Source: Deltaproteobacteria bacterium
GTDB taxonomy: Bacteria > Desulfobacterota > GWC2-55-46
Assembly (NCBI GenBank): GCA_016177845.1
Contig: JACOUO010000007.1
Location: 1-64,000, forward strand
Direction: 5' to 3'
DNA: 64,000 nucleotides
This document shows positions 4,845 to 22,175 of the stretch, one piece after another (the stretch's first letter is position 1; each line of letters starts with the position of its first letter). The notes under the pieces are model-generated. The model was given only the letters and a program-made list of their open reading frames with translations, did no database searches and had not been told where the DNA came from. The position numbers and the translations under genes are program-made.

Positions 4845-7800
4845 TTATTGGCACGCCTGCGCATTTTTTAGGCTGGCTGCCATTCTTATAAGGTCGGCAG
4901 CCTGCGTGCCTGTAATGGACTTGCCAGACTGGGCGTTCACCTCGTTTATGAAAGCGTCTACCTTATTGCAGGTGGCCGGCGAATAAGTTCCGCCTGCAGT
5001 CGCAAGGGCGTTCTGTAATTTGGCGGATAGACTGTTCATTACGCCCTGCGTCAGGTTATAGCTTTCAATGACGCTTATAAGATTGGCTATAATCTCGCCG
5101 GGGCCAAGGACAGTTACGTAAAACCCTGTTGTTGAGCTGTTTGCGGCCCAATCGGTAGCTGTGCAGGCTACTGCGGTCGTGCCTATGGGGAATGTGCTGC
5201 CCGATGCCGGTGCGCAATTTATGGCCGGGCTCGGGTCAACCGCATCTGCCGCGGTTGCCGTATAGGTTACCGAGGCGCCCGCAGGACCTGTGGCGTTTAC
5301 TGACATATTGGACGGAACAGTAATGACGGGTGCGGTGGCGTCCACGCCAATTACTATTGTGAAGCTATTTGTTTCGTATATGCCCGTAGAATCGGAGACC
5401 CGGGCGGCGAACCCGTATATCCCGGAAGACTCAGGCGTGCCGCTTATCTCTCCTGTTGCCGGATTCAATGAAAGCCCGGTAGGCAGGCCTCCTGAGGGCA
5501 GGTTCCATGCATAGGGCGCGATGCCGCCTGTTGCCGCGAGGGTCTGGCTGTAAGCAAGGCCGACAATGCCTTCAGACAGCGCAGCCGCTGGAATTGCGAG
5601 GTCGCTGACCGTCGGGCCGCTGAGTGTAGCTGAAGACGGGAGTCTTGCCGAGCCTGTCCCGTCAGATGTCTCGAAATAGTAGTCATGCGAGCCTATGCCC
5701 AGGGTGGTAGCGAATGTAAACTGCTCGCCATTGGTGTAATCGCCGTCATTGAGGGTCACCGCTGCACCGGTATCTGCCGACATAGCGCTGCAGGTCCCGT
5801 CCACGCATACCCTCATGTATGAGGGGGCGCTATTATCGGCGTCGGTATAAACAGTCTTGTAAGTGAATATCGTTGAGGCCGTGCCGATATTCGGTTCTAT
5901 CGCGTCCGCATAGCCGGGCTCGGATGGATAGGCAAGGGAAGGGGCTGCATTAAATCTTATTTTCGCAATGAAGGCATCATTACTGGTTGCTTTAGCCTGC
6001 AAGGGCGAAACCGTAGGAAAGTCGGTGGACAAAACCATGCCTGTTATGTAGGCATCCCCGGTCGAATCGACCGCTATGGCGTAACCCTGATCATGATTAC
6101 TCCCCCCGAGGTAGGTCGAATAGACAAGGCTGCCAATTGGGCTTATCTTCGTAACGAACGCGTCAAAAAGGCCTGACTTCGCCTGCATGGCGGAGGAAGT
6201 AGGGAAATCAATGGAAGAAGTATAGCCGGTAACATATGCGTTTCCGGTTGAATCGACTGCAATGCCTCTACCGTAATCATAATTACTTCCCCCCAGGAAA
6301 GTCGAATAGTCGAGTCCGCCGGAGGGGCTTATCTTTGTGACGAACGCGTCAATACTGCCGCCTGCGTGAGCCGGCTGCAAAGCCGAAGCCGTAGGGAAGT
6401 CGTAGCCCCATGTCATCCCCGTTATATAGGCGCCCCCGGTTGAGTCGACCGCGATAGCGTAAGCCCACTCATTATACCATCCTCCGATGTGAGTTGAATA
6501 AACCAGGCTGCCTGTGGGGCTTATCTTCGTAATGAACGCGTCAGCGGCGGAGCTTGAGTAAGGCCCCTGTATGGCCGAGGCCGTGGGAAAATCGGACGAG
6601 CCCGTATACCCGGCAATATATGCGTTCCCGGCAGAATCGACTGCGATGCCGTTACCCTGGTCCGTAGCGCGCCCGCCGAGATAAGTTGAATAGACAAGGG
6701 TGCCTGATGGGCTTATCTTAGTAACGAACGCATCACCCCAAGGATTGGATGTGTTTGCGTAAGATCCCTGCATAGCCGAAACTGTAGGGAAGTCGGTGGA
6801 GAATGTTACCCCCGTAACATAGGCGCTCCCGGTTGAATCGACCGCTATGCCTTGACCGCGCTCATCATCGCTTCCGCCAAGATAGGTAGAATATACGAGT
6901 CCGCCTGTGGAGTTTATCTTCGCTACGAACGCATCACCATATTTTGCGTTAGCCTCCTGTATGGCCAAGGCCGTAGGGAAGTCGGTGGAGGATGTCTGTC
7001 CAGTAATATATGCGTTCCCGGCAGAATCGACCGCGATGCCGTTACCCTGGTCCGTAGCGCTCCCGCCGAGATAGGTTGAATAGACAAGAGTGCCTGAGGG
7101 GCTTATCTTCATAACGAAAGCGTCTTGAAAATCCGCGATAGCCCCTTGCAAGGCAGCGGCAACAGGAAAGTCGGCAGACCGTGTATAGCCGGTGACATAG
7201 GCGCTTCCGGCCGTATCGACCGCGATGCCTTGGCCCCAATCACCACTACTTCCACCAAGGTAGGTCGAGTAAACCAGGTACGGGTCTATTACGAGTTCCC
7301 GTTTTTTGTCGTACGAAGCGACATCGAAACCGTATGCGAATTTACCTTTGTTGGAGAGGACCTTGAACTTCCCGTCGATCTCTTTTCTCTGTCCGTCTAT
7401 CTCCTGGTATATATAGGGCTTCTTCTGGTGTATGGTCCCTTCCTTGAGCGTAATCTCCATGTCGCCGTTCTCGAGGACCCTGAGCCCCTTTATGCCCTCA
7501 TAGGCAAATTTTACATTCCGGTAGTCGGCACCCGGTTTCACTATGACATCGTATTCAAGCTGCGTGTTATTTCCATAGTACTTTATATCAATACCCTGAT
7601 AAACCTCTTTATATAATATTCCGCCGTAAGTGGGGACGCTTGTCCTCCACTTTGACCTGTCTTTGCCGACGAAGTAATTGACCTTGCCTTCGAGTTCGTC
7701 TGTAGCGGTTATCTTTGAATTTTTGTTGGAGCCGGGCAGGGAGAGCTTAACGAGTTCGGATTTCGCGTCGAATCTTTCGTCCTCAAGGGCTTTCTCTATA

Positions 7801-8114
7801 AAAGGTTTGCTTCTGTCTTGAGCAACGCGCCTTGTGAGGTTAAGGTAGACGCCGTCATTCGTGAAGTATGTGGCATGCCCGCTTCCTTTTTCAAAGTACC
7901 TTACCTTCTTTTCGAGCTGGCCTGCGTTCTTTATAAAATACAGGGGTAGTTTGCCGAAGTCGTTATGCAGGGCGGCAGTCCCACCTGCAACCGGGCTTTT
8001 TAATGGCTCATCCTTCTTTTTTTCTAAATTATGCGCATCATCTGCCCATCCGGTTCCTGCAAGCAAGGTTAAAACAGCCAACAGCAAAGCAAGAAAAGAG
8101 CCTTTGCGTTTCAT
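4845..8114 (-). CDS. Large secreted SBBP-repeat beta-propeller protein with Ig/HYR and FIMAH domains
   Basis: The start is set at ATG 8114, preceded by GGAGGCGTC; upstream in-frame Met codons lie beyond the leader terminator. The ~1089-residue protein has a signal peptide (MKRKGSFLALLLAVLTLLAG, cut near GWA-DD). A ~200-residue N-terminal region of the type common before SBBP repeats contains YFIKNAGQLEKKVRYF. About eight SBBP repeats follow (core YSTYLGGS-D-G-GIAVDS-G-AYVTG-T-S-DFPT, roughly 60 residues each), forming a propeller. Next come a stretch around DADNSAPSYMRVCVDG, a putative-Ig repeat (GLPTGLSLNPATGEISGTP), an HYR domain (DATAPVITVPSNMSVNATGP) and a C-terminal ~80-residue FIMAH-like domain (QGVMNSLSAKLQNAL ... 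FINEVNAQSGK). It is exported and probably surface-associated; its ligand is unknown. Monocistronic. Confidence 0.9.
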   Translation of the reverse strand: MKRKGSFLALLLAVLTLLAGTGWADDAHNLEKKKDEPLKSPVAGGTAALHNDFGKLPLYFIKNAGQLEKKVRYFEKGSGHATYFTNDGVYLNLTRRVAQDRSKPFIEKALEDERFDAKSELVKLSLPGSNKNSKITATDELEGKVNYFVGKDRSKWRTSVPTYGGILYKEVYQGIDIKYYGNNTQLEYDVIVKPGADYRNVKFAYEGIKGLRVLENGDMEITLKEGTIHQKKPYIYQEIDGQRKEIDGKFKVLSNKGKFAYGFDVASYDKKRELVIDPYLVYSTYLGGSSGDWGQGIAVDTAGSAYVTGYTRSADFPVAAALQGAIADFQDAFVMKISPSGTLVYSTYLGGSATDQGNGIAVDSAGNAYITGQTSSTDFPTALAIQEANAKYGDAFVAKINSTGGLVYSTYLGGSDDERGQGIAVDSTGSAYVTGVTFSTDFPTVSAMQGSYANTSNPWGDAFVTKISPSGTLVYSTYLGGRATDQGNGIAVDSAGNAYIAGYTGSSDFPTASAIQGPYSSSAADAFITKISPTGSLVYSTHIGGWYNEWAYAIAVDSTGGAYITGMTWGYDFPTASALQPAHAGGSIDAFVTKISPSGGLDYSTFLGGSNYDYGRGIAVDSTGNAYVTGYTSSIDFPTSSAMQAKSGLFDAFVTKISPIGSLVYSTYLGGSNHDQGYAIAVDSTGDAYITGMVLSTDFPTVSPLQAKATSNDAFIAKIRFNAAPSLAYPSEPGYADAIEPNIGTASTIFTYKTVYTDADNSAPSYMRVCVDGTCSAMSADTGAAVTLNDGDYTNGEQFTFATTLGIGSHDYYFETSDGTGSARLPSSATLSGPTVSDLAIPAAALSEGIVGLAYSQTLAATGGIAPYAWNLPSGGLPTGLSLNPATGEISGTPESSGIYGFAARVSDSTGIYETNSFTIVIGVDATAPVITVPSNMSVNATGPAGASVTYTATAADAVDPSPAINCAPASGSTFPIGTTAVACTATDWAANSSTTGFYVTVLGPGEIIANLISVIESYNLTQGVMNSLSAKLQNALATAGGTYSPATCNKVDAFINEVNAQSGKSITGTQAADLIRMAASLKNAQACQ

Positions 8115-8154
8115 GACGCCTCCTGGAATGCGGGTTAGAGTAAACAACGGAAAT

Positions 8155-8206
8155 AAAAAAAGCCCCAAAAAGGAGGGTGCCTGCCTTTTTGAGGCTTCAT
8201 CGCCTC
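8155..8206 (-). promoter_or_regulatory. Leader attenuator of the SBBP gene (terminator plus competing hairpin)
   Basis: Between promoter and start codon the minus-strand transcript can form a 13-bp hairpin (arms 8184-8196 and 8161-8173, AGCCTCAAAAAGG / CCTTTTTGGGGCT) followed by six U residues, a full intrinsic terminator lying before the coding region. Immediately upstream is a second hairpin, GAGGC-GATGAA-GCCTC (8191-8206), whose 3' arm is the 5' arm of the terminator. The two cannot coexist. That is the design of a riboswitch or attenuator; I do not recognise a known aptamer. Confidence 0.6.
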
Positions 8207-8242
8207 TTTAATAAAAAGCCGTCGTCAGCTTGTTTTTAAATC

Positions 8243-8516: not shown

Positions 8517-9596
8517 CTACACGGCCTTTTTTTGAATCCAGCAGCCCGGGTCTGCCTTGAAGGGGCTGCCGGTCATAGCATAGGAGAGGCATTTGAGCCC
8601 ACCGGCGCACAAAGCCGAGTAGAGGCAGCTCTCGCATCCCTCCGAAGCGCGGCTGCGGTCTCTTAGCCTTTTAAATATTTCGCTATCGTTATACAGATCA
8701 GCAAGCGTTGCTTCTGTCAGGTTTCCCGCAGCTATCGGCAAGCGACGGCACGGATACAGGTCGCCGTTAGATTGTATCGTTATCAGCGAGTCCCCGGCGG
8801 TGCAGCGGTACGGCCTTTCTTCAGAAAAAAGAAACTGGAGCGCACGTTGCATGGAAACCTCGGTCCTGTTGAACAGGGTGAGAATGGAGCGGCCACGTGA
8901 GCGCTTCATGATTTCTAGGAACTCTTTGGTCTCAACGGGCGTAAGGGCCTGTGAGCGCATATGAGAGCCAGCGCCGGCAGGTATCAGGCGGTCCGCCCAA
9001 ACGCGGTCTACCTTAAGGCTGCGGCCGACAGCAGCGACTGCGCCGAATTCCCTATAGTTGGCCCTGTGTGCCGTGAATGAGACGAGGACCCTCAGCCCCT
9101 CTTTCTTCAGGTGCCTTATGGCCTCTACTGTCTTTGCATAGCTGCCTTTTCCCCGTATGCCGTCGTGCGTGGCTTCAACGCCTTCAAGGCTCACCTGCAC
9201 GAATTTCGGCCCCAGTGAACGCAGTCTTCCGGCTACTTTCTTATCGATGAGACTGCCGTTGGTAAGGATGGAAAAACTGAAGTCTTTTTTGTGCGCCCGA
9301 AATAATTCGAGTATCTCGAAAAAATCTTCTCTTGCAAACGGCTCACCCCCGCTGAGTGTGATGTGCCCGAAGCGTTTAGCCCCACCCTTCCATGTCTTGA
9401 GGAGCTCTATGTACTGGCAGATTATATTCATTATCATGTTGAATGAAAGCTCTGCCCCGGAGTAGCCCTCCTGATAACAATGCGCGCACCTCAAGTTGCA
9501 CCGCTCGGTTATATGCCACTGCAAAAGGAGCTGTCGGCCGTCTCCATCTTCATGGCAAGTGCCGCTCTGCCATGGAAATACTAATCTCCGCCACAT
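8517..9596 (-). CDS. Radical SAM/SPASM protein, candidate peptide or protein maturase
   Basis: The start is set at ATG 9596, nine bases after GGAGGAGG. An ATG at 9632 is possible but lies further inside the preceding gene. The ~359-residue protein carries the [4Fe-4S]/SAM motif ERCNLRCAHC (Cys33, 37, 40), the SAM-contact LSGGEPF, and a C-terminal SPASM domain with seven or more cysteines (YRCTAGDSLITIQ, DLYPCRRLPIAAGNL, EGCESCLYSALCAGGLKC, PGCW) for auxiliary clusters. This is the architecture of RiPP and enzyme-maturing radical SAM proteins. The gene overlaps by 16 bp the upstream gene, whose product ends in a Gly/Cys-only tail; the coupling suggests that tail as substrate. This partner assignment is inference. 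Confidence 0.85.
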   Translation of the reverse strand: MWRRLVFPWQSGTCHEDGDGRQLLLQWHITERCNLRCAHCYQEGYSGAELSFNMIMNIICQYIELLKTWKGGAKRFGHITLSGGEPFAREDFFEILELFRAHKKDFSFSILTNGSLIDKKVAGRLRSLGPKFVQVSLEGVEATHDGIRGKGSYAKTVEAIRHLKKEGLRVLVSFTAHRANYREFGAVAAVGRSLKVDRVWADRLIPAGAGSHMRSQALTPVETKEFLEIMKRSRGRSILTLFNRTEVSMQRALQFLFSEERPYRCTAGDSLITIQSNGDLYPCRRLPIAAGNLTEATLADLYNDSEIFKRLRDRSRASEGCESCLYSALCAGGLKCLSYAMTGSPFKADPGCWIQKKAV

Positions 9597-10477
9597 CCGC
9601 CGCACCCTCCTCCGGAGCATCCGCCTGAACAACCGCTACTGCCACCGCATCCGCCGGAGCATCCTGAGGTCCCTGTAGCGTTCCTCTTGAATGCTTCGCT
9701 GTATTGTGGATACAAAGAACTGACAGACAGATGTCCCGCGCCGTATAAAGCAACAAGGAATGCCGGGTCGACCCCTTCAGGCAAAGTCTGCCTCTTGAGC
9801 GTCCACCTGAAGCGCTCTCGCAGGTTTTTTAAATAATCGCGCCCAAGCCTGGTGAGGTGCTTCCTCTTTTTAAACATTAAAAAAAGAATGGCCTCCGAGA
9901 TTAAAAAGGATATCACGAGGAAGGCTACCGGCTTGCCATGTGTGACCCCGAGATAGAGCTTGAGCCCTCCCGGAACCGCAATCAGCGCCCCGAAGAACAG
10001 CGCTATCCGGTTCACGCCTCTTTGCTGAACTTTGCTTCTGAGGAGATGGCACCGTTCAAGCCCCGCCCTGACATTAACAAGATGTGCTTCGACCCTTGTC
10101 CTGAAACCCCTGTCCCTGAAAAGAACCTCTGGCGTGCGCGGGGTTGAAAGAAAAGCCAGTACCTCCGCGTCGAGTGCAGACAGCCCTTGAGGGCGGACTT
10201 TGCCCGCGTCGCGGACGCGCATCTTCTTTGTTTCATTTTCTACGAAAACCAGGCCCATTTTCATCAGGCTGAAAACCCTGGACCGGATGACCGAATTGAC
10301 CCCGCCCTGTAACACGGCTATAGCTACCGGGTCCAGACAAGCCCCCTCATCGAACGCATGAGAGGAAGAGCCGTCGGCATCAGTCAACAGCCTCATCAGG
10401 AAAATACAGAGCAGCGAAAAGGCTAAAAAGATCCAAATAAATACCGGCCCCGGTATCTGTCTTAAAAATTCAACCAT
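9581..10477 (-). CDS. Membrane protein with Gly/Cys/Ser-only C-terminal tail (TIGR04222-like)
   Basis: The protein has 298 residues. It has an N-terminal membrane segment (VFIWIFLAFSLLCIFLMRLL), a ~110-residue soluble domain (DPVAIAVLQGGVNSVIRS; LSALDAEVLAFL), a pair of membrane segments (IALFFGALIAVPGGLKLYL and PVAFLVISFLISEAILFLMF), a short helical domain, then a tail of ~30 residues made almost only of Gly, Cys and Ser with six Cys (GCSGGCGGSSGCSGGC and on). The arrangement matches what I recall of the TIGR04222 family. The tail is encoded by the DNA that contains the ribosome-binding site of the overlapping radical SAM gene. Function unknown; the tail looks like a modification or metal-binding target. 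Confidence 0.8.
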   Translation of the reverse strand: MVEFLRQIPGPVFIWIFLAFSLLCIFLMRLLTDADGSSSHAFDEGACLDPVAIAVLQGGVNSVIRSRVFSLMKMGLVFVENETKKMRVRDAGKVRPQGLSALDAEVLAFLSTPRTPEVLFRDRGFRTRVEAHLVNVRAGLERCHLLRSKVQQRGVNRIALFFGALIAVPGGLKLYLGVTHGKPVAFLVISFLISEAILFLMFKKRKHLTRLGRDYLKNLRERFRWTLKRQTLPEGVDPAFLVALYGAGHLSVSSLYPQYSEAFKRNATGTSGCSGGCGGSSGCSGGCSGGGCGGCGGD

Positions 10478-14704: not shown

Positions 14705-14764
14705 TTGTATATAGTACAAAGCCGTTAAGGTCTTTTAATCCAAAAAAGAGAGGAGGTGAGCTAT

Positions 14765-14980
14765 ATGGCAGTCGAGAAGAACATGGCTTCTTCCAGCCTC
14801 GTAGAGGTAGTGGACAGGATCCTTGACAAGGGCATCGTTATAGATGCATGGGCAAGGGTATCGCTTGTAGGTATCGAGCTTTTGGCGATAGAAGCGAGAG
14901 CAGTATGTTCGTCTGTTGAGACCTTCCTGAAATATGCCGAAGCAATAGGTCTTACAGCGACAGAGTCAGCAACAGCGTAA
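14765..14980 (+). CDS. gvpA: Gas vesicle major structural protein GvpA
   Basis: The start is ATG 14765, eight bases after a perfect AGGAGG; the frame is open from a GTG at 14756 but that codon lies inside the Shine-Dalgarno. The 71-residue protein has the GvpA core: an N-terminal helix [18 protein letters not shown], a beta-hairpin [18 protein letters not shown] and a C-terminal helix [14 protein letters not shown]. It assembles into the ribbed gas-permeable shell. It is the first gene of the cluster, with the best ribosome-binding site, as expected for the most abundant product. A short spacer with a stable hairpin follows. Confidence 0.96.
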
Positions 14981-14985
14981 CAGGT

Positions 14986-15001
14986 TCTCGCGAAAGCGAG
15001 A
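14986..15001 (+). other. GNRA hairpin downstream of gvpA
   Basis: TCTCGC-GAAA-GCGAGA: a perfect 6-bp stem closed by a GAAA tetraloop, 6 bases after the gvpA stop and without a T-tract. It probably protects the gvpA message from 3' decay so that gvpA mRNA exceeds that of the distal genes, rather than acting as a terminator. This role is inference. Confidence 0.55.
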
Positions 15002-15127
15002 GATCTCGGGCGCATCCTTTGGGTGATAGAGGCACTTTTTCTAAGCCCCCCTATCAAGAAGGCCTTAAGCATGCTCTGGAGATCTCGTCCATTATCTTAA
15101 ATCCAAAACACTGCAAGGGGAAGATTT

Positions 15128-15763
15128 ATGGTACATCCCGATTATATTAGCTCAGGGCTTGAAATCGTCGAATCTTACGAAAAGAGATTAAAGATTATTA
15201 TGGACCTCATAAATGAGGCTGCAGGTTTTGTTGATGAATATACCTCGGAACAGGATTCCATGCTGATGAGCCTCAGGCAGATTCTTGCGAAAAAGGAAAA
15301 CCTTAGAAAGAAGGACTTCGATACGCATATTGAGTGCATACTGAGACACAGGGAGGAGATGAGGGCGGAGCTGAAGGAGACTTTTGGCGTCCTGTGGAAA
15401 GAAGAAGGGGAAATAGTAAAAAGGCTCAAAGATATTTTTATAAAAGGCGCTCCGAAGGATTTCGAATCCATTAAAAATGAATATATTCCGCATATGAGGG
15501 AAAGGGAAGGGGCAGTTGCGAGATTTATAATGAGACTGCAGATTGACCAGGCTGAATTGTCCGCTGAGCTCAATGAGCTTCTTTCAAAAGGCGAGAACCT
15601 GCGCTTAAAGGACTTCAGAAAAGCCATAAAGGAATTTAAGTTTCTGCAGCATGGAGAAAGTAATCGCGCAGCAAAGATCGTTGAGAATTTTGAAAAGATA
15701 AGGATGGATATCATGGGGCAATGGCATAACCTCTGCTCCGTATATGAAAAGAGCGCAGTATAA
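15128..15763 (+). CDS. Coiled-coil protein of the gas-vesicle cluster, internally duplicated
   Basis: I do not recognise the family. The 211 residues are almost wholly helical and charged, without signal peptide or membrane segment. Two similar halves are visible: ILAKKENLRKKDFDTHIE in the first and LLSKGENLRLKDFRKAIKEF in the second, each followed by a helix with HREE/HGES and then a Phe-ending segment. AAGGGG stands seven bases before the ATG. It lies between gvpA and gvpN, where accessory shell or regulatory proteins such as GvpC occur in other species. A structural or scaffold role is plausible but unproven. Confidence 0.8.
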   Translation: MVHPDYISSGLEIVESYEKRLKIIMDLINEAAGFVDEYTSEQDSMLMSLRQILAKKENLRKKDFDTHIECILRHREEMRAELKETFGVLWKEEGEIVKRLKDIFIKGAPKDFESIKNEYIPHMREREGAVARFIMRLQIDQAELSAELNELLSKGENLRLKDFRKAIKEFKFLQHGESNRAAKIVENFEKIRMDIMGQWHNLCSVYEKSAV

Positions 15764-15819
15764 CTTTTGTCATTTCAGGCATCGCATCAAATCACAAGAG
15801 CTTTAACAAGGAGGGAGCC

Positions 15820-16329
15820 ATGGCATTATCAAATGATTTCAGGGCAATGGTACAGGATATATCGGCTTCATATGATGTAAGAAAAGGGGAGCTTTCCGCG
15901 CTGAGACACCAGATGCACAAAATGCTTGATGAGTTCAGGAAAGAGAAAAAAGAAGAATTCAAGAAGCTCGGCGACGAGAGGAAGAAGGAAATCTCAGACA
16001 TAAAGCAAAGGGTCTCTGACTTGAAACATGACCTAAGGGCTTCACTTCAGGAATTCAGAAAGACAACCTTCGCAGAGATACATAAGGGCGCGGAGGAAAG
16101 GAAAGAGGAAGTTTCCCATGCGCTTAAAACCTTCAGGAAAGAGGTGCTCAATACCTTCAGGCATGAACGCGAGGATATGGCATCCAGCTGGCAGGAGCTT
16201 GTGGCGTCAATGAAGGAAAAAAGGGCTGGCAAGGAACCCGGGCATTACGAAAAGACAGGCCCTGAAAAGGCAGTTCACGAAAAAAGAGCGCATCACAAGA
16301 ACAGGAAGGCTGCAAAGACCCGTCATTGA
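15820..16329 (+). CDS. GvpC-like coiled-coil protein with 40-residue repeats
   Basis: A 169-residue, highly charged helical protein with a strong AAGGAGGG ribosome-binding site. A 30-residue segment starting LDEFRKEKKEEFKKL (36) recurs 40 residues later as LQEFRKTTFAEIHKG (76), with DERKKEIS / EERKEEVS at matching positions. A shorter third copy begins LKTFRKEVLNTFRHERED (102). A basic His/Lys-rich tail follows (EKRAHHKNRKAAKTRH). GvpC, the strengthening protein clamped on the outside of gas vesicles, is likewise built of amphipathic helical repeats and encoded next to gvpA. Sequence identity to GvpC is not evident, so this is an analogue by architecture and place. Confidence 0.8.
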   Translation: MALSNDFRAMVQDISASYDVRKGELSALRHQMHKMLDEFRKEKKEEFKKLGDERKKEISDIKQRVSDLKHDLRASLQEFRKTTFAEIHKGAEERKEEVSHALKTFRKEVLNTFRHEREDMASSWQELVASMKEKRAGKEPGHYEKTGPEKAVHEKRAHHKNRKAAKTRH

Positions 16330-16441
16330 TTCAGGAATTGTCCGTAAGATCTTTTAGAATAAAAGAACCGGCCCGGCATTTTAAAAAGGGCCTGCTGAAT
16401 CAGCCTAATTGAATCCGATATGAATGGAGGTAATCTTCTCT

Positions 16442-17425
16442 ATGGTCTCAAATGAATATACAACTGTTCTGGAGCCCCGCAGCATGCCTGAATTTGTGGA
16501 GACACCCTATGTGAAAGGAGTTACAGAAAGGGCTTTCGCATATATCAAAGCGGGTTTTCCGGTTCACTTCAGAGGGTCTTCAGGCGCAGGAAAGACAACC
16601 CTTGCAATGCACCTCGCCGCAAAGATTGGCAGGCCCGTAGTAATCCTTCATGGAGATGAGGAGCATTCCACTTCCGCGCTTATCGGCGCCGAACAGGGCT
16701 ACAGTAAAAAGAGAGTGGTCGACAACTTCATCCATTCGGTACTTAAGACTGAAGAAAGCATGCAGAAGACATGGGTTGACAACCGGCTGACACTGGCCTG
16801 CAAATACGGATTCACCCTTATATACGATGAGTTTACCAGGTCCAGGCCTGAGGCCAATAACATCCTGCTTTCAATATTGCAGGAAAAGGTAATGGACTTG
16901 CCCGGGGCTAAAGACGGCTATATAAAAGTTGATCCTAATTTTGTAGCCATATTCACCAGCAACCCCGAGGAATATGCCGGCGTATACAGGAGCCAGGATG
17001 CCCTGAGGGACAGGATGGTGACCCTTGATCTCGATTACCCGGACAGGGAGACGGAGATAGCAATAACAATGTCTAAATCCGGGTTTAAAAGGGCTGATTC
17101 TGAAAAGATAGTCGATGTCGTAAGGGGACTCAGGGATTCGGGGAAATGCGAGTTCGCCCCGACTGTCAGGGGATGCATAATGATAGCAAGGACGCTTAAG
17201 ATAAGAAACGCGTCAGTTGACGCGGACAGCGCGATCTTCAGGGATATATGCACCGATATCCTCGGCTCAGAGACGAGCAGGATTGGCAGCAGGACTAACT
17301 CGGCAAAAATGAAAAAATTTATATTAGACCTGATTAATAAAAACTGCAGAAATGGAAACGGAGCAAAAAACCTAAAAGAAGAGCATGTGGCGGCTGCAGC
17401 CGGAATAATAGACGCTCTCCATTAA
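16442..17425 (+). CDS. gvpN: Gas vesicle ATPase GvpN
   Basis: The start is taken at ATG 16442; an in-frame ATG at 16424 overlaps the GGAGG that serves it. The ~327-residue MoxR-type AAA+ protein has Walker A GSSGAGKT, Walker [11 protein letters not shown], sensor I in [10 protein letters not shown], and the arginine-finger region RDRM. The opening [20 protein letters not shown] is characteristic of GvpN. GvpN is needed for gas vesicles to widen from bicones to cylinders and works with GvpC-type proteins. Downstream genes follow at short spacing. Confidence 0.93.
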
Positions 17426-17439
17426 ATAAGGAGTCGGTT

Positions 17440-17751
17440 ATGCCCAGAAGCATTGCGGGCCTTTCAAAAATAAAAACCGGACAGAAGTCAAAAATAAGAT
17501 CACTGCCCGGTATAACTGAGAACAGCTATCTCGACCTGTATGTGATAAACCTTGAAAAGGGCAGGCTTGAAAAAGAGCTGGAAGCAGTTCTCAAAAGAAA
17601 AACCAGGCTTGAGCATGAACTTAAAGCTGTTGAAAAAGAAATGATGAAGTTAAGAAAAGGAATGCCTACGAAAACAAAGGAAGCTCAAACAATAAGCCGG
17701 GCAAAGGGGAGTAGTCCAAAAACTGTTAAAACGATGATATTGGATTACTGA
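17440..17751 (+). CDS. Small coiled-coil protein of the gas-vesicle cluster
   Basis: The 103-residue protein has a basic N-terminus, a central [20 protein letters not shown] helix running into a long coiled coil ([19 protein letters not shown]) and a disordered basic tail. It begins 14 bp after gvpN, with AAGGAG before the ATG, and ends 1 bp before the first GvpF/L gene. Short proteins with a similar YLELY-type helix occur in other gvp clusters (GvpV-like), but I cannot assign it firmly. It may be an assembly adaptor. Confidence 0.75.
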
Positions 17752-17752
17752 A

Positions 17753-18508
17753 ATGGGAGAGAGTAATTATCTATACTGCATCATAGGCACTGACGAAGCC
17801 CGTAATTTCGGCCCTATCGGCATAGGAGGCGGGGAGATAGAAGTCACAACCCTTGGATTCGAAGGCATCTCATGCGTTATCAGCCGGTCGCCTCAGCTTG
17901 AGTACACTCTTAACAGGGAAAACCTTCTGGCCCATCAGAAGGTGATAGAAAAGGTGATGAAGGAATATACGGTGCTGCCGGTGAGGTTTTCTACCATTGC
18001 CGACAGCCCGGAGAATATTCGCGGGCTGTTAAGGAAAAGGCAGCGTGAATTTAAAAATCTCCTGTCGGAAATGGAAGGCAAGATCGAGCTTGGGCTAAAG
18101 GCTATGTGGAGTGATATGAAACAGGTCTTTAGGGAAATACAGGAGACGGACAACGAGATAAGAAAAATAAAATATAAGATGGCTGCCGGCGGGAATGGAG
18201 GCGCATATCATGAGAGGATCAGCCTCGGCACGATGGTCGCTTCCGCGCTCCAGAGGAAAAAGGATGAAGAGGCCGAAATTATCCTTTCATTGTTCAGGGA
18301 TATCTCCGTAGACATCAAGAGCAACAAGGTTCACGGAGACAATATGTTCCTGAACGCCGCTTTCCTTATTGATGGGATCAGGGCCGCCGAGTTCGACAGC
18401 AGGATAAGGGAGCTTGATGAAAAAAGCAACGAGAGGATGAAATTGAAATATGTGGGGCCTGTCCCGATATTTAATTTCGTAAATATAATTGTTGAATGGA
18501 ATTCATGA
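17753..18508 (+). CDS. gvpF: Gas vesicle protein GvpF/GvpL, copy 1
   Basis: The 251-residue protein has the two-domain GvpF/L plan. The N-terminal alpha/beta domain contains YLYCIIGTDEA, the loop LLAHQKVIEKVMKEYTVLPV and RFSTIADSPENI. A helical middle carries the family mark EGKIELGLKAMW, and the C-terminal domain ends KYVGPVPIFNFVNI. GvpF/L proteins contact GvpA directly, probably at the growing gas-facing end, and are needed for assembly. This is the shortest and most canonical of three copies in the cluster (see 22208 and 23595). It starts directly after the preceding stop. Confidence 0.93.
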   Translation: MGESNYLYCIIGTDEARNFGPIGIGGGEIEVTTLGFEGISCVISRSPQLEYTLNRENLLAHQKVIEKVMKEYTVLPVRFSTIADSPENIRGLLRKRQREFKNLLSEMEGKIELGLKAMWSDMKQVFREIQETDNEIRKIKYKMAAGGNGGAYHERISLGTMVASALQRKKDEEAEIILSLFRDISVDIKSNKVHGDNMFLNAAFLIDGIRAAEFDSRIRELDEKSNERMKLKYVGPVPIFNFVNIIVEWNS

Positions 18509-18532
18509 AATTTAACAAAGCGGAGTAAGAAT

Positions 18533-19069
18533 ATGCCTGCAAAAAAAAAGACCACCAATGAAAGAGAAGCTCATGAAAAGGATTTTGACCTGTTCGGAAA
18601 ATCCTCGCTTGGAGGATTTTTCAAAGGTCTTACCGACCTCATAGACATTGCCGCGAAAGCAGCAGAAAAAGGAGAAGCCCTGAAAGGCGGGGGCGAGATA
18701 AAGGGCCCCGGAAAAGATATCAAGGGAGTATACGGGTTCTCAATAAAGACGCTTGCAGGCAAGCCCTTTTTAGAGCACTTCGGCAATATCAAGGAAACCC
18801 CGCAGGGGCCTGTAGTGGAAGAGGTGCGGGAGCCGATAGTCGATGTATTCGATGAAAAAAAGAACATAATCGTGATAGCGGAAGCCCCGGGCATTGAAAA
18901 GAAAGACATAAGAGTTGAGGTAAAGGAAGACGCGCTTGACATCAGGGCTTACGGCAATCAAAGAAAATATCACAAGGAAGTAAAGCTGCCTTCACGGGTA
19001 AAGGCTGAAACCCTTGAGTACACATACAAGAACGGCGTTATTGAAATAAAACTTTCAAAGGCGGCCTGA
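18533..19069 (+). CDS. gvpH: Hsp20-like gas vesicle protein GvpH
   Basis: The 178 residues comprise a basic N-terminus, a ~60-residue Gly/Lys-rich region ([20 protein letters not shown]) and a C-terminal alpha-crystallin domain of about 85 residues ([20 protein letters not shown] ... [12 protein letters not shown]). Small heat-shock proteins of this type (GvpH) accompany many gvp clusters and may keep GvpA or the accessory proteins soluble. A second, shorter Hsp20 lies at 26486. It is 11 bp from the CDC48-like gene, consistent with shared proteostasis duty. Confidence 0.88.
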
Positions 19070-19080
19070 CAAAAGGGATT

Positions 19081-21246
19081 ATGGAAAACTCATTGAGCCT
19101 CAGGGTAACTGAATCTGCCCCTAAAGATGTAGGCAGGGGAATAGCCAGGCTGGACCCTTCCAACATGGCTAAACTTGGGATAGAAGTAGGAGATATTGTC
19201 TCAATAGAGGGGAAGCGCTGCACTGTGGCAAAGATTATGCCGATGCGTATCGAGGACCGGGGCAAAGAGGCCATACAGGTCGACGGCCTTATAAGGCAGA
19301 ACGCTCAGGCGGGCCTTGGCGATAAGGTCAAGCTCAAAAAGGCGCATTATAAACCCTGCCAGAGAATCGTGCTCACGCCCGTAACCCACCTGAAGTCTTT
19401 AATAAGGGACTCAAGATATTTATCGAGCCTGCTTGACGGGCTCCCAGCAGTTGAGGGTGACAGGATAAGGGCCAGCCTTTTTGGGGCAAAGGGGCAGGAT
19501 TTCTATGTTACAGCCGTATTGCCTTCTCAAGCCGTCGTAATCAATCCAAAAACAATTATAGAGATAAAGGCCGGGGATAAGAAAGCGCAGGCTGAAAAGT
19601 CACGCGTAACATATGAAGACATAGGCGGGCTCAAAAAAGAGATACGAAAGATAAGGGAGATGATAGAGCTCCCGCTGAGGCATCCGCAGGTCTTTGAGAG
19701 GCTTGGCATAGATGCGCCGAAAGGCGTGTTTCTCCATGGCCCTCCGGGCTGCGGAAAGACCCTTATCGCGAGGGCTGTAGCAAGCGAGACTGATGCTTTT
19801 TTTACGCACATCAGAGGCCCTGAAATAATGCATAAGTTTTACGGCGAGAGCGAGGCTAATCTGAGAAAAATCTTTGATACCGCTTCTGCCAACGCGCCTT
19901 CCATAATATTTATTGACGAGATAGATGCCATAGCTCCGAAGCGCGAGGATATGGGAGGCGAGAAGCAGGTTGAAAGGAGAGTGGTTGCCCAGCTGCTGTC
20001 CTTGATGGATGGGCTGGAGAACAGGGGCCAGGTGATAGTTTTGGCAGCAACTAACCTGCCTAACATGGTTGATCCTGCCCTCAGAAGGCCGGGCAGATTT
20101 GATCGTGAAATAGAGATAAGCATACCGGATAAGAACGGCAGGCTTGAAATACTCACGATACATACGAGAGGCATGCCGCTTGCTTCAGATGTCGACCTTG
20201 AAAAGCTGTCGCAGATAACGCACGGCTTTATCGGCGCTGACCTTGAGGCGCTTGGCAGGGAAGCTGCCATGATCACGCTTCGAAAGGTCTTCCCTACTAT
20301 CGACCTCCATCTGGAGGAGCTTCCCTATGAAGTGCTTAAATCTCTTGAAGTTAAGATGGATGATTTTCTCGAAGCCTTAAAAGAAATAGAGCCTTCGGCG
20401 CTCAGGGAAGTGTTTGTGGAAGTCCCTGACATCAGATGGTCGAATATCGGCGGATTGGACAAAGTGAAACAGGCTCTGCAGGAGGCAGTCGAGTGGCCGC
20501 TGCGTAATTCTGAAATATTCAAATACGCCGGCGCCAAGCCTCCAAAGGGCATTCTTTTATATGGGTCGCCAGGTACAGGCAAAACGCTTCTCGCAAAGGC
20601 GCTTGCAACCGAGAGCGAAGTTAACTTCATTTCAGTAAAAGGGCCTGAACTGATATCCAAATGGGTAGGCGAAAGCGAGAGGGGCATCAGAGAGGTCTTC
20701 CACAAGGCAAAGCAGGCTTCTCCGTGTATCATTTTTTTTGATGAGATTGACTCGCTTGTTCCCAAACGGGGTGGTGGAGAATCTCAGGTCACGGAAAGGG
20801 TGATAAGCCAATTCCTTACGGAGATGGACGGCATAGAGGAATTGAAGGGCGTTGTTGTGCTTGCGGCTACAAACAGGGTCGATATCCTGGACCCAGCACT
20901 TTTGCGCCCCGGCAGGTTTGACCAGATCTTCGAGATTACGCTGCCTGACAAAAAGTCCAGGACCGAGATATTTAAGGTCCATACAAAAGGCAAACCGCTG
21001 TCTAAAGAAGTAGACCTGAAAGAATTATCAGAGCTTACTGACAGGTTTACCGGTTCAGAAATAGAGGCTGTATGCAGGGAAGCGTCTCTTTCGGCTGTAA
21101 GGGAATTCATGTCCAGGAAGGCATTGGCATCAGGAGATAATTTTTCTGCCTCATATCGCGGTCTTGTGATTACGATGGAGCATTTCAAGAGGTCTGTTGA
21201 GGCTTTCAAAAAAGAAAAGGACATTGGGCTAAGGAGCTTGAGATGA
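19081..21246 (+). CDS. CDC48/p97-family double AAA+ ATPase
   Basis: The 721 residues follow the p97 plan. A CDC48 N-domain (residues 1-100, double-psi barrel; [19 protein letters not shown]) leads to D1 with Walker A GPPGCGKT (~220), Walker [16 protein letters not shown] and [11 protein letters not shown], then D2 with Walker A GSPGTGKT (~495), Walker [16 protein letters not shown] and [11 protein letters not shown]. Both modules look catalytically intact. p97-type ATPases unfold or extract proteins from complexes. CDC48-like genes recur in gvp clusters of deltaproteobacteria and relatives, so a role in remodelling or disassembling gas-vesicle intermediates is likely but not shown. GvpH lies 11 bp upstream and gvpG 21 bp downstream. 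Confidence 0.93.
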
Positions 21247-21267
21247 CCTTTTACAAGGCAGGATACC

Positions 21268-21519
21268 ATGGGCTTTATACTTGATGACATTTTGCTCTTC
21301 CCGATCAATGGAGTTGTATGGATTGCCGAAAAGATCAAGGAGTCCGCGGAGGCGGAGCTGCTCGATGATTCGAAAGTGAGTGAGAGATTGATGGCCCTCC
21401 AGATGCAGCTTGAACTTGAGGAGATTACCGAGGAAGAGTATCAAAAAAAAGAGACTGAGCTTCTGGATAGGCTTGAGGAAATAAGGAAATACAAAGAATC
21501 GCATGGCTTAAATAAATAG
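21268..21519 (+). CDS. gvpG: Gas vesicle protein GvpG
   Basis: The 83-residue helical protein has the GvpG opening GFILDDILLFPINGVVWIAE and the following LEEITEEEYQKKETELLDRL that marks the family. GvpG is a small essential assembly protein found in complexes with GvpF/L. It lies 21 bp after the CDC48-like gene. Confidence 0.92.
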   Translation: MGFILDDILLFPINGVVWIAEKIKESAEAELLDDSKVSERLMALQMQLELEEITEEEYQKKETELLDRLEEIRKYKESHGLNK

Positions 21520-21538
21520 ACTGAGGGTGAAAAGAAAA

Positions 21539-21802
21539 ATGCCCAATATCGGAAACATAATCACAATGGCAAGGAACGAAATAAGCGGGATTACAGGCCT
21601 TAAACCTTCATCAACGATTAAGACCGCAAAGGATGAAAAAGGCTGGCATATATTTGTCGAGCTCATAGAAAAACATTCGATCCCGGACGGAATGGATATA
21701 TTGGCCACATATGAAGTTGTTGTAGATGATGACGGCAATCTCCTTGAATTTAACCGCAGGGGGATGCGTAAGAGGATGGATACTCTTGTAACTGAGTGGT
21801 AA
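21539..21802 (+). CDS. gvpO: Gas vesicle protein GvpO
   Basis: The start is ATG 21539, with GAGGGTG about ten bases upstream; an in-frame GTG 12 bp earlier overlaps that ribosome-binding site. The 87-residue protein matches GvpO in its core: GWHIFVELIEKHSIPDGMDI followed by LATYEVVVDDDGNLLEFNR, ending RKRMD. GvpO is a conserved accessory protein, linked to regulation or assembly in haloarchaea and actinobacteria. It lies 8 bp before the next GvpA-family gene. Confidence 0.9.
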   Translation: MPNIGNIITMARNEISGITGLKPSSTIKTAKDEKGWHIFVELIEKHSIPDGMDILATYEVVVDDDGNLLEFNRRGMRKRMDTLVTEW

Positions 21803-21821
21803 GAGCGGTGTGGAGGCAGTG

Positions 21822-22175
21822 ATGGGGAAAAAAGCTTCGATGAACGACAGCAATACTCTTTTTGATGTCGTAGAAAGAATTTTAGACAAAGGCCTGGCGA
21901 TAAACGCGGATATCTCGATCTCAATCGCGGGGACCGAGCTTCTGGGCATAAGAATAAGGGCGGCGTTGGCTTCGTTCGAAACAGCGGCCAAATACGGAAT
22001 GGAGTTCCCTACAGGCATCAACCAGGGGCTTGCGGCATGGCAGGAGGCAATGGAATCGAAAGAGAATTGCCCGGGATGCGGCAAAAGGCAGCTTGTGGAA
22101 AAGCTTCTGAAGGAAGGGTGCCCGTGGTGCGGTTGGATAAGCGCCAGGGCAAAGCTTATCCAGCAGGCAGGTTGA
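21822..22175 (+). CDS. GvpA-family protein with C-terminal zinc ribbon
   Basis: The start is taken at ATG 21822 after GGAGGCAGTG. Residues 11-60 are a GvpA/GvpJ-type core (LFDVVERILDKGLAINADIS, then IAGTELLGIRIRAALASFE). Residues ~80-105 add a four-Cys module, CPGCG (83, 86) and CPWCG (100, 103), which should bind one Zn. The remaining helix is basic. GvpA-family paralogues (GvpJ, M, S) are minor shell or tip proteins that start assembly. The zinc ribbon is not part of the usual GvpA or GvpJ and would sit outside the shell wall. It is presumably a minor component or nucleator. Confidence 0.88.
   Translation: MGKKASMNDSNTLFDVVERILDKGLAINADISISIAGTELLGIRIRAALASFETAAKYGMEFPTGINQGLAAWQEAMESKENCPGCGKRQLVEKLLKEGCPWCGWISARAKLIQQAG

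Follow-up and report, generated by a model that had tools for sequence, protein, structure and literature searches.

Two overlapping genes on the reverse strand of the window (the 64-kb stretch of DNA analysed here) raise the question of whether a radical SAM/SPASM enzyme modifies the cysteines of the membrane protein encoded immediately upstream of it. The membrane protein, a 298-aa candidate substrate (9581..10477, − strand), scored 105.9 bits against the NCBIfam model TIGR04222 (cut-off 43) and has the build of that family, with three helices followed by a disordered, low-complexity C-terminal tail. A TIGR04222 membrane protein with a Cys tail belongs to an already named family and is not new: the collection holds more than 3,500 proteins with C-terminal Ser/Gly/Cys-rich regions, subsets of which were proposed in 2025 to be membrane-anchored substrates of MNIO (PF05114) enzymes (PMC12452194). 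The tail of the window protein, SGCSGGCGGSSGCSGGCSGGGCGGCGGD, spans 28 residues (9584..9667, −), is predicted to be disordered and consists of 15 Gly, 6 Ser, 6 Cys and a final Asp, matching the preliminary description of a pure Gly/Cys/Ser tail with six Cys and a terminal Asp. Among 36,532 segments of 28 aa taken from the long open frames of the 64-kb window, to which this measure of uniqueness applies, four contain at least 6 Cys and at least 12 Gly, and all four overlap this tail.

The neighboring gene (8517..9596, −), the candidate tail maturase, encodes a protein with both a Radical_SAM domain (Pfam, E 1.6e-23) and a SPASM domain (PF13186, E 4.5e-9; 8625..8804, −), and its cluster cysteines are invariant in an alignment of eight relatives. 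The open frame was listed as 8517–9632 with a TTG start at 9632, but alignment with the relatives begins at the in-frame ATG at 9596, which is probably the true start, and the interval between the two codons is merely an out-of-frame reading of the tail codons. With this start, the gene overlaps the end of the membrane protein gene by 16 nt (9581..9596, −). A putative ribosome-binding site, GGAGGAGGG (9605..9613, −), is formed from the Gly codons of the tail and places AGGAGG nine bases upstream of the ATG, as expected from the earlier observation that the tail codons double as the ribosome-binding region of the radical SAM gene. Where the two genes are directly adjacent, the distance from tail stop to enzyme start falls between −15 and +6 nt in 12 of 13 pairs, indicating that a ribosome-binding site located in the tail codons is typical of these loci. 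A promoter scan gave no excess over shuffled sequences, and no Rfam families were found in the 64-kb window. Downstream of the pair, a gene at 4845–8117 (−) encodes a large secreted-type protein with a DUF7948 domain, seven SBBP repeats, and HYR and other Ig-like domains; its leader (8150–8230) contains a terminator-like inverted repeat with no Rfam match. By eye, a gas-vesicle-like cluster occupies 14756–22175, with GvpA-like genes at 14756–14980 and 21810–22175, a GvpN-like ATPase at 16424–17425, a GvpF/L-like gene at 17753–18508 and a CDC48-like ATPase at 19081–21246.

The AlphaFold2 model of the membrane protein, built from 30 sequences (pLDDT 83.9), shows the disordered tail along with three membrane helices and a soluble domain built around a helix-helix-hairpin core. 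Hydropathy agrees with the model in placing membrane helix 1 at residues 10–33 (10379..10450, −), membrane helix 2 within a long helix at residues 149–179 (9941..10033, −), and membrane helix 3 at residues 185–204 (9866..9925, −), the last followed by a stretch rich in Lys and Arg. In 29 of 30 TIGR04222 proteins the density of Lys and Arg is higher on the side that carries the soluble domain and the tail, which by the positive-inside rule argues that the tail probably faces the cytoplasm; the 2025 study places it in the periplasm (PMC12452194). Foldseek returned no match to the membrane protein with E < 0.001, and VIA-align gave weak matches over ~165 residues to Golgi phosphoprotein 3 (Z 7.9) and Vps74 (Z 7.4). 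No RRE- or PqqD-like recognition fold appeared in either list, a result that excludes nothing.

Assignment of the radical SAM enzyme to a curated family was rejected, as the best models reach at most 156.5 bits and every one falls below its cut-off: ACGX (TIGR04340) scored highest at 156.5 of the 400 bits required, followed by TIGR04053 (153 vs 395), NirJ (141 vs 515) and SbtM (TIGR04082; 127.7 vs 350), so that the enzyme is not a member of the SbtM family. Its closest relatives by sequence among solved structures are the sactisynthase SkfB and, next, a protein annotated as Radical SAM domain protein (5wgg). Judged by sequence, the enzyme and its relatives form a coherent, uncurated radical SAM/SPASM subfamily. 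A search of 398 genomes, which does not prove absence, found no TIGR04082 members; for the enzyme of locus L009, discussed below, SbtM is the top-ranked model at 151.9 bits.

How regularly the two genes occur together was examined across genomes, most of them metagenome assemblies, so that gene absences are not certain. A contig scan recovered eight loci with enzyme relatives at 49–83% identity, and genome searches added further ones, bringing the carriers of the subfamily to 23 genomes from the window's own family, sulfur bacteria related to Thioploca and Thiomargarita, Nitrospirota, Planctomycetota and SAR324. Of these 23 enzyme-bearing genomes, drawn from several phyla, 16 encode a TIGR04222 protein with a Cys/Gly tail next to the enzyme; counted among the 16 are G750 and G792, where one gene lies between the two and their order is reversed. 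The remaining seven comprise three with TIGR04222 elsewhere, two with short Cys/Gly-ended peptides, one without TIGR04222 and one in which the contig ends; Parabeggiatoa (G345) keeps the enzyme and has no TIGR04222 gene. The preliminary description held that the radical SAM gene and the tailed membrane protein belong together and named as its refutation homologues that mostly lack such a neighbor; the 16 of 23 bear out the former and run against the latter. Co-distribution points the same way. Among 43 genomes of the order of Thioploca, TIGR04222 occurs in 11 of 12 genomes with the enzyme and in 4 of 31 without (p 2.5e-6), and in Planctomycetota (294 genomes) both enzyme-bearing genomes are among the 12 that have TIGR04222 (p 0.0015), these p values taking no account of shared ancestry. 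The pairing of TIGR04222 tails with this radical SAM enzyme is real and well conserved.

Several TIGR04222 genes are distant from the enzyme gene, and tails without an adjacent enzyme are found in G358, in G646 and in the second copy of G347, the enzyme being encoded elsewhere in the genome. G646 carries four tandem TIGR04222 genes within ~4 kb (L127, L130–L132), away from its single subfamily enzyme. Three further Cys/Gly-tailed TIGR04222 genes (L140, L141 and L142, in G557, G439 and G594) have neither the enzyme nor MNIO adjacent; every Cys in these tails follows Gly, giving them the same look as the enzyme-linked ones, and another partner enzyme may exist for them.

No gene for the known alternative partner, MNIO (PF05114), adjoins the TIGR04222 gene of the window. 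Of 18 genomes tested that carry enzyme and TIGR04222 together, 12, including the window's, have no PF05114 gene at all; in the other six an MNIO gene lies elsewhere. MNIO genes are missing from roughly a third of the completed genomes that encode TIGR04222 proteins (PMC12452194). Among Planctomycetota without the enzyme, MNIO is encoded directly downstream in six of nine TIGR04222 genomes checked, abutting or overlapping the tail codons. The radical SAM enzyme thus appears, from gene position, to stand where the unrelated iron enzyme MNIO stands in other TIGR04222 loci. A nucleotidyltransferase-like gene, with weak Pfam matches, is shared by three loci of the MNIO type and three of the radical SAM type, and a profile built from the radical SAM-side proteins alone recovers their MNIO-side counterparts with E values of 6e-53 to 9e-27. 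This protein of ~250 aa was observed beside TIGR04222 at L033, L144, L147 and L148 on the MNIO side and at L074, L075 and L149 on the radical SAM side; none is encoded near the pair in the window. A radical SAM partner of TIGR04222 is unreported in the open literature searched (5.39 million open papers, two of which name TIGR04222, the NCBIfam curators' comment on the family lying outside this search), and the main TIGR04222 paper names radical SAM nowhere but in its reference list.

The tails linked to the two enzymes differ in the residues flanking Cys, as counted within tail limits set by eye. In the 16 tails linked to the radical SAM enzyme, each of the 73 Cys has Gly immediately before it (55.5 expected; 0 of 2000 shuffles reach 73), as has each of the 39 when one tail is taken per lineage (0 of 2000 shuffles), and the residue after Cys is Gly in 68 cases and Ser in five. 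Six MNIO-linked tails show the opposite constraint: 25 of 35 Cys follow Gly, against an expectation of 25.0, and all 35 precede Gly (25.1 expected; 0 of 2000 shuffles). Such differing constraints would be expected if each enzyme reads its tail. One Leu-Cys was found in an in-trans tail, the second copy in G350.

Four genomes in the order of Thioploca have TIGR04222 but no detected enzyme (G655, G673, G654 and G683), and they suggest what happens to the tail when the enzyme is lost. In G655 the enzyme gene is present beside the tail and runs off the contig. G673 retains a broken enzyme gene directly after the tail, AERCNLRCAHCYQDNYARDDLSFEQ followed by a stop, and its tail is thinned of Cys, the middle having turned into a run of 18 Gly. 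In G654 the tail is cut to SGNSYG, with zero Cys, and the enzyme remnant consists of the first codons only (NTKLTNMLLQC, compared with NTVPTNILLQW in the Thioploca locus), while in G683 the enzyme is absent and the tail, GGGYGSN, contains no Cys. In G654, G673 and G683 tail Cys are thus lost or thinned along with the enzyme, and in two of the enzyme-loss cases a gene remnant is still visible.

Short-peptide loci tie the wider enzyme group to Cys-rich C-termini as well. In the Nitrospirota genome G348, the enzyme gene is immediately preceded by genes for two 50-aa peptides ending in NPSGCGCGGGS, and a PqqD-like protein and an S24-type peptidase are encoded after it. Tandem NPSGCGCGGGS peptides together with a second radical SAM gene were observed in Nitrospirota at L009 (4636–9273) and L066 (898–1363), an arrangement that looks like a classical short-peptide version. 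The SAR324 locus encodes a peptide ending in YGGCSGCGGW beside a second radical SAM gene, and gut Bacillota relatives of the enzyme (~31% identity) have downstream a 40-aa peptide, MKEYSAPIIQEEDEMLFTKDVWENFSEGNWCFGCTNCNCN, ending in WCFGCTNCNCN (L012–L017, about 6200–6400), which is likely an uncharacterised precursor. In a tree of 24 enzyme sequences the short-peptide enzymes L009 and L010 group together (88/90) inside the TIGR04222-linked group; 4 of the 21 inner branches listed are well supported, too few for partner switches to be dated.

Taken together, these observations favor the reading that the radical SAM enzyme modifies the tail cysteines of its TIGR04222 partner and that the pair constitutes a minimal modification system, to which we assign a probability of about 0.7. 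Translation would be coupled through the tail codons, such that enzyme and substrate are made together, and the enzyme would act on the Gly-Cys sites of the cytoplasm-facing tail. With a cytoplasmic tail, substrate and enzyme would share the compartment in which a radical SAM enzyme is expected to operate, making export or cleavage unnecessary, and the search for nearby proteases or exporters proposed earlier found none adjacent among the window's open frames. The modified tail would then stay in the membrane, the TIGR04222 protein carrying the substrate and also forming the final scaffold, and by analogy with known thiooxazole peptides the modified Cys would most likely form a metal-binding array. 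The candidate substrate, a 298-aa three-helix protein, is not a short precursor with a leader and a cleaved core, and in this respect the pair departs from a RiPP system. A membrane-anchored substrate, which the preliminary description considered unusual, is the best reading of the locus, although the idea is not new, having already been proposed for MNIO (PMC12452194).

The leading options for the chemistry are a thioether or a thiooxazole. Thioether or C-C links, as anticipated in the preliminary description for a SPASM protein, are only one option, given that the radical SAM/SPASM enzyme SbtM converts Cys to thiooxazole with the loss of four hydrogens (PMC11002830). Thioether crosslinks of the sactionine or ranthipeptide type, joining tail Cys to Gly or Ser/Asp carbons, are a tentative possibility: SkfB is the best match among solved structures, and the tail offers many Gly acceptors with Gly always before Cys, but the likeness to SkfB does not go beyond the general fold, and such crosslinks usually want a fixed donor-acceptor spacing, whereas Cys spacing in the tails ranges from 2 to 15. 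That the product is specifically a thiooxazole (−4 H per Cys), as for MNIO, so that two unrelated enzymes converge on one modification of one scaffold, is a similarly tentative possibility. In its favor, SbtM is among the nearest curated models, and MNIO, the alternative partner, likewise makes 5-thiooxazole (PMC12668002); yet the window enzyme falls far short of the SbtM cut-off and scores higher against ACGX, TIGR04053 and NirJ, and Gly precedes Cys in the radical SAM set where it follows Cys in the MNIO set.

An improbable alternative to modification is that the unmodified tail binds metal or Fe-S precursors and docks or supplies an enzyme that has another substrate. The identical tails without an adjacent enzyme would fit such a role, and the wider enzyme group includes the heme-modifying NirJ and AhbC/D; against it, the subfamily is also found with short peptides that end in Cys/Gly where TIGR04222 is missing from the genome, the tail Cys fade once the enzyme is lost, and the same scaffold has been proposed as an MNIO substrate. 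A tail composition arising merely as a by-product of the Gly-codon ribosome-binding site or of DNA repeats, with no protein function, is very unlikely, for although the Gly codons do supply that site, tails persist where the enzyme is encoded elsewhere (G358, G646, the second copy in G347) or beyond an intervening gene (G750, G792), and the same Gly/Cys tail is kept at loci of 31–71% G+C with different third codon positions, as if selected as protein and not as a DNA repeat.

Modification of the tail by its adjacent enzyme would give a subset of the MNIO-lacking TIGR04222 proteins a dedicated candidate enzyme. The data suggest that the conserved element is the tail and not the enzyme, with one Cys/Gly tail served by two chemically unrelated enzymes. 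A more speculative and rather unlikely extension is that radical SAM/SPASM and MNIO enzymes replaced each other on one scaffold to make the same thiooxazole, yielding an anchored, cytoplasm-facing metallophore array. If true, this would be a non-orthologous replacement of a protein-modifying enzyme, with the radical SAM enzyme as the anaerobic and MNIO as the oxygen-using version; were the products to match, a protein modification would have been reached convergently by oxygen-using and oxygen-free chemistry.

Several known systems invite comparison. DUF2207_C (PF20990) matches 24 of 30 TIGR04222 proteins at E up to 1 (best 2.7e-8; the window protein has no match), which suggests common descent of TIGR04222 as a branch of the DUF2207 membrane proteins; to our knowledge, that family has neither Cys tails nor a maturase partner. 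The ACGX system differs in that no ACGX-repeat peptide lies beside the enzyme gene of the window. SbtM is likewise a radical SAM/SPASM enzyme tied to Cys-containing substrates, but its 516-position model is matched only from ~190 on, and it acts on a short peptide. A Cys-rich sequence, a dedicated enzyme and proposed metal binding of the product are shared with bufferins and other MNIO thiooxazole peptides; these, however, are small secreted peptides with a Sec signal and an MNIO + DUF2063 partner, and the three-helix membrane protein described here has none of these features. The closest parallel is with the TIGR04222-MNIO systems, which share the protein family, the Cys/Gly tail, a partner gene abutting the tail codons and, in some cases, the nucleotidyltransferase-like gene. 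They differ in that Cys always precedes Gly on the MNIO side and always follows Gly here, and in that the predicted partner here is a radical SAM enzyme, which is the new part.
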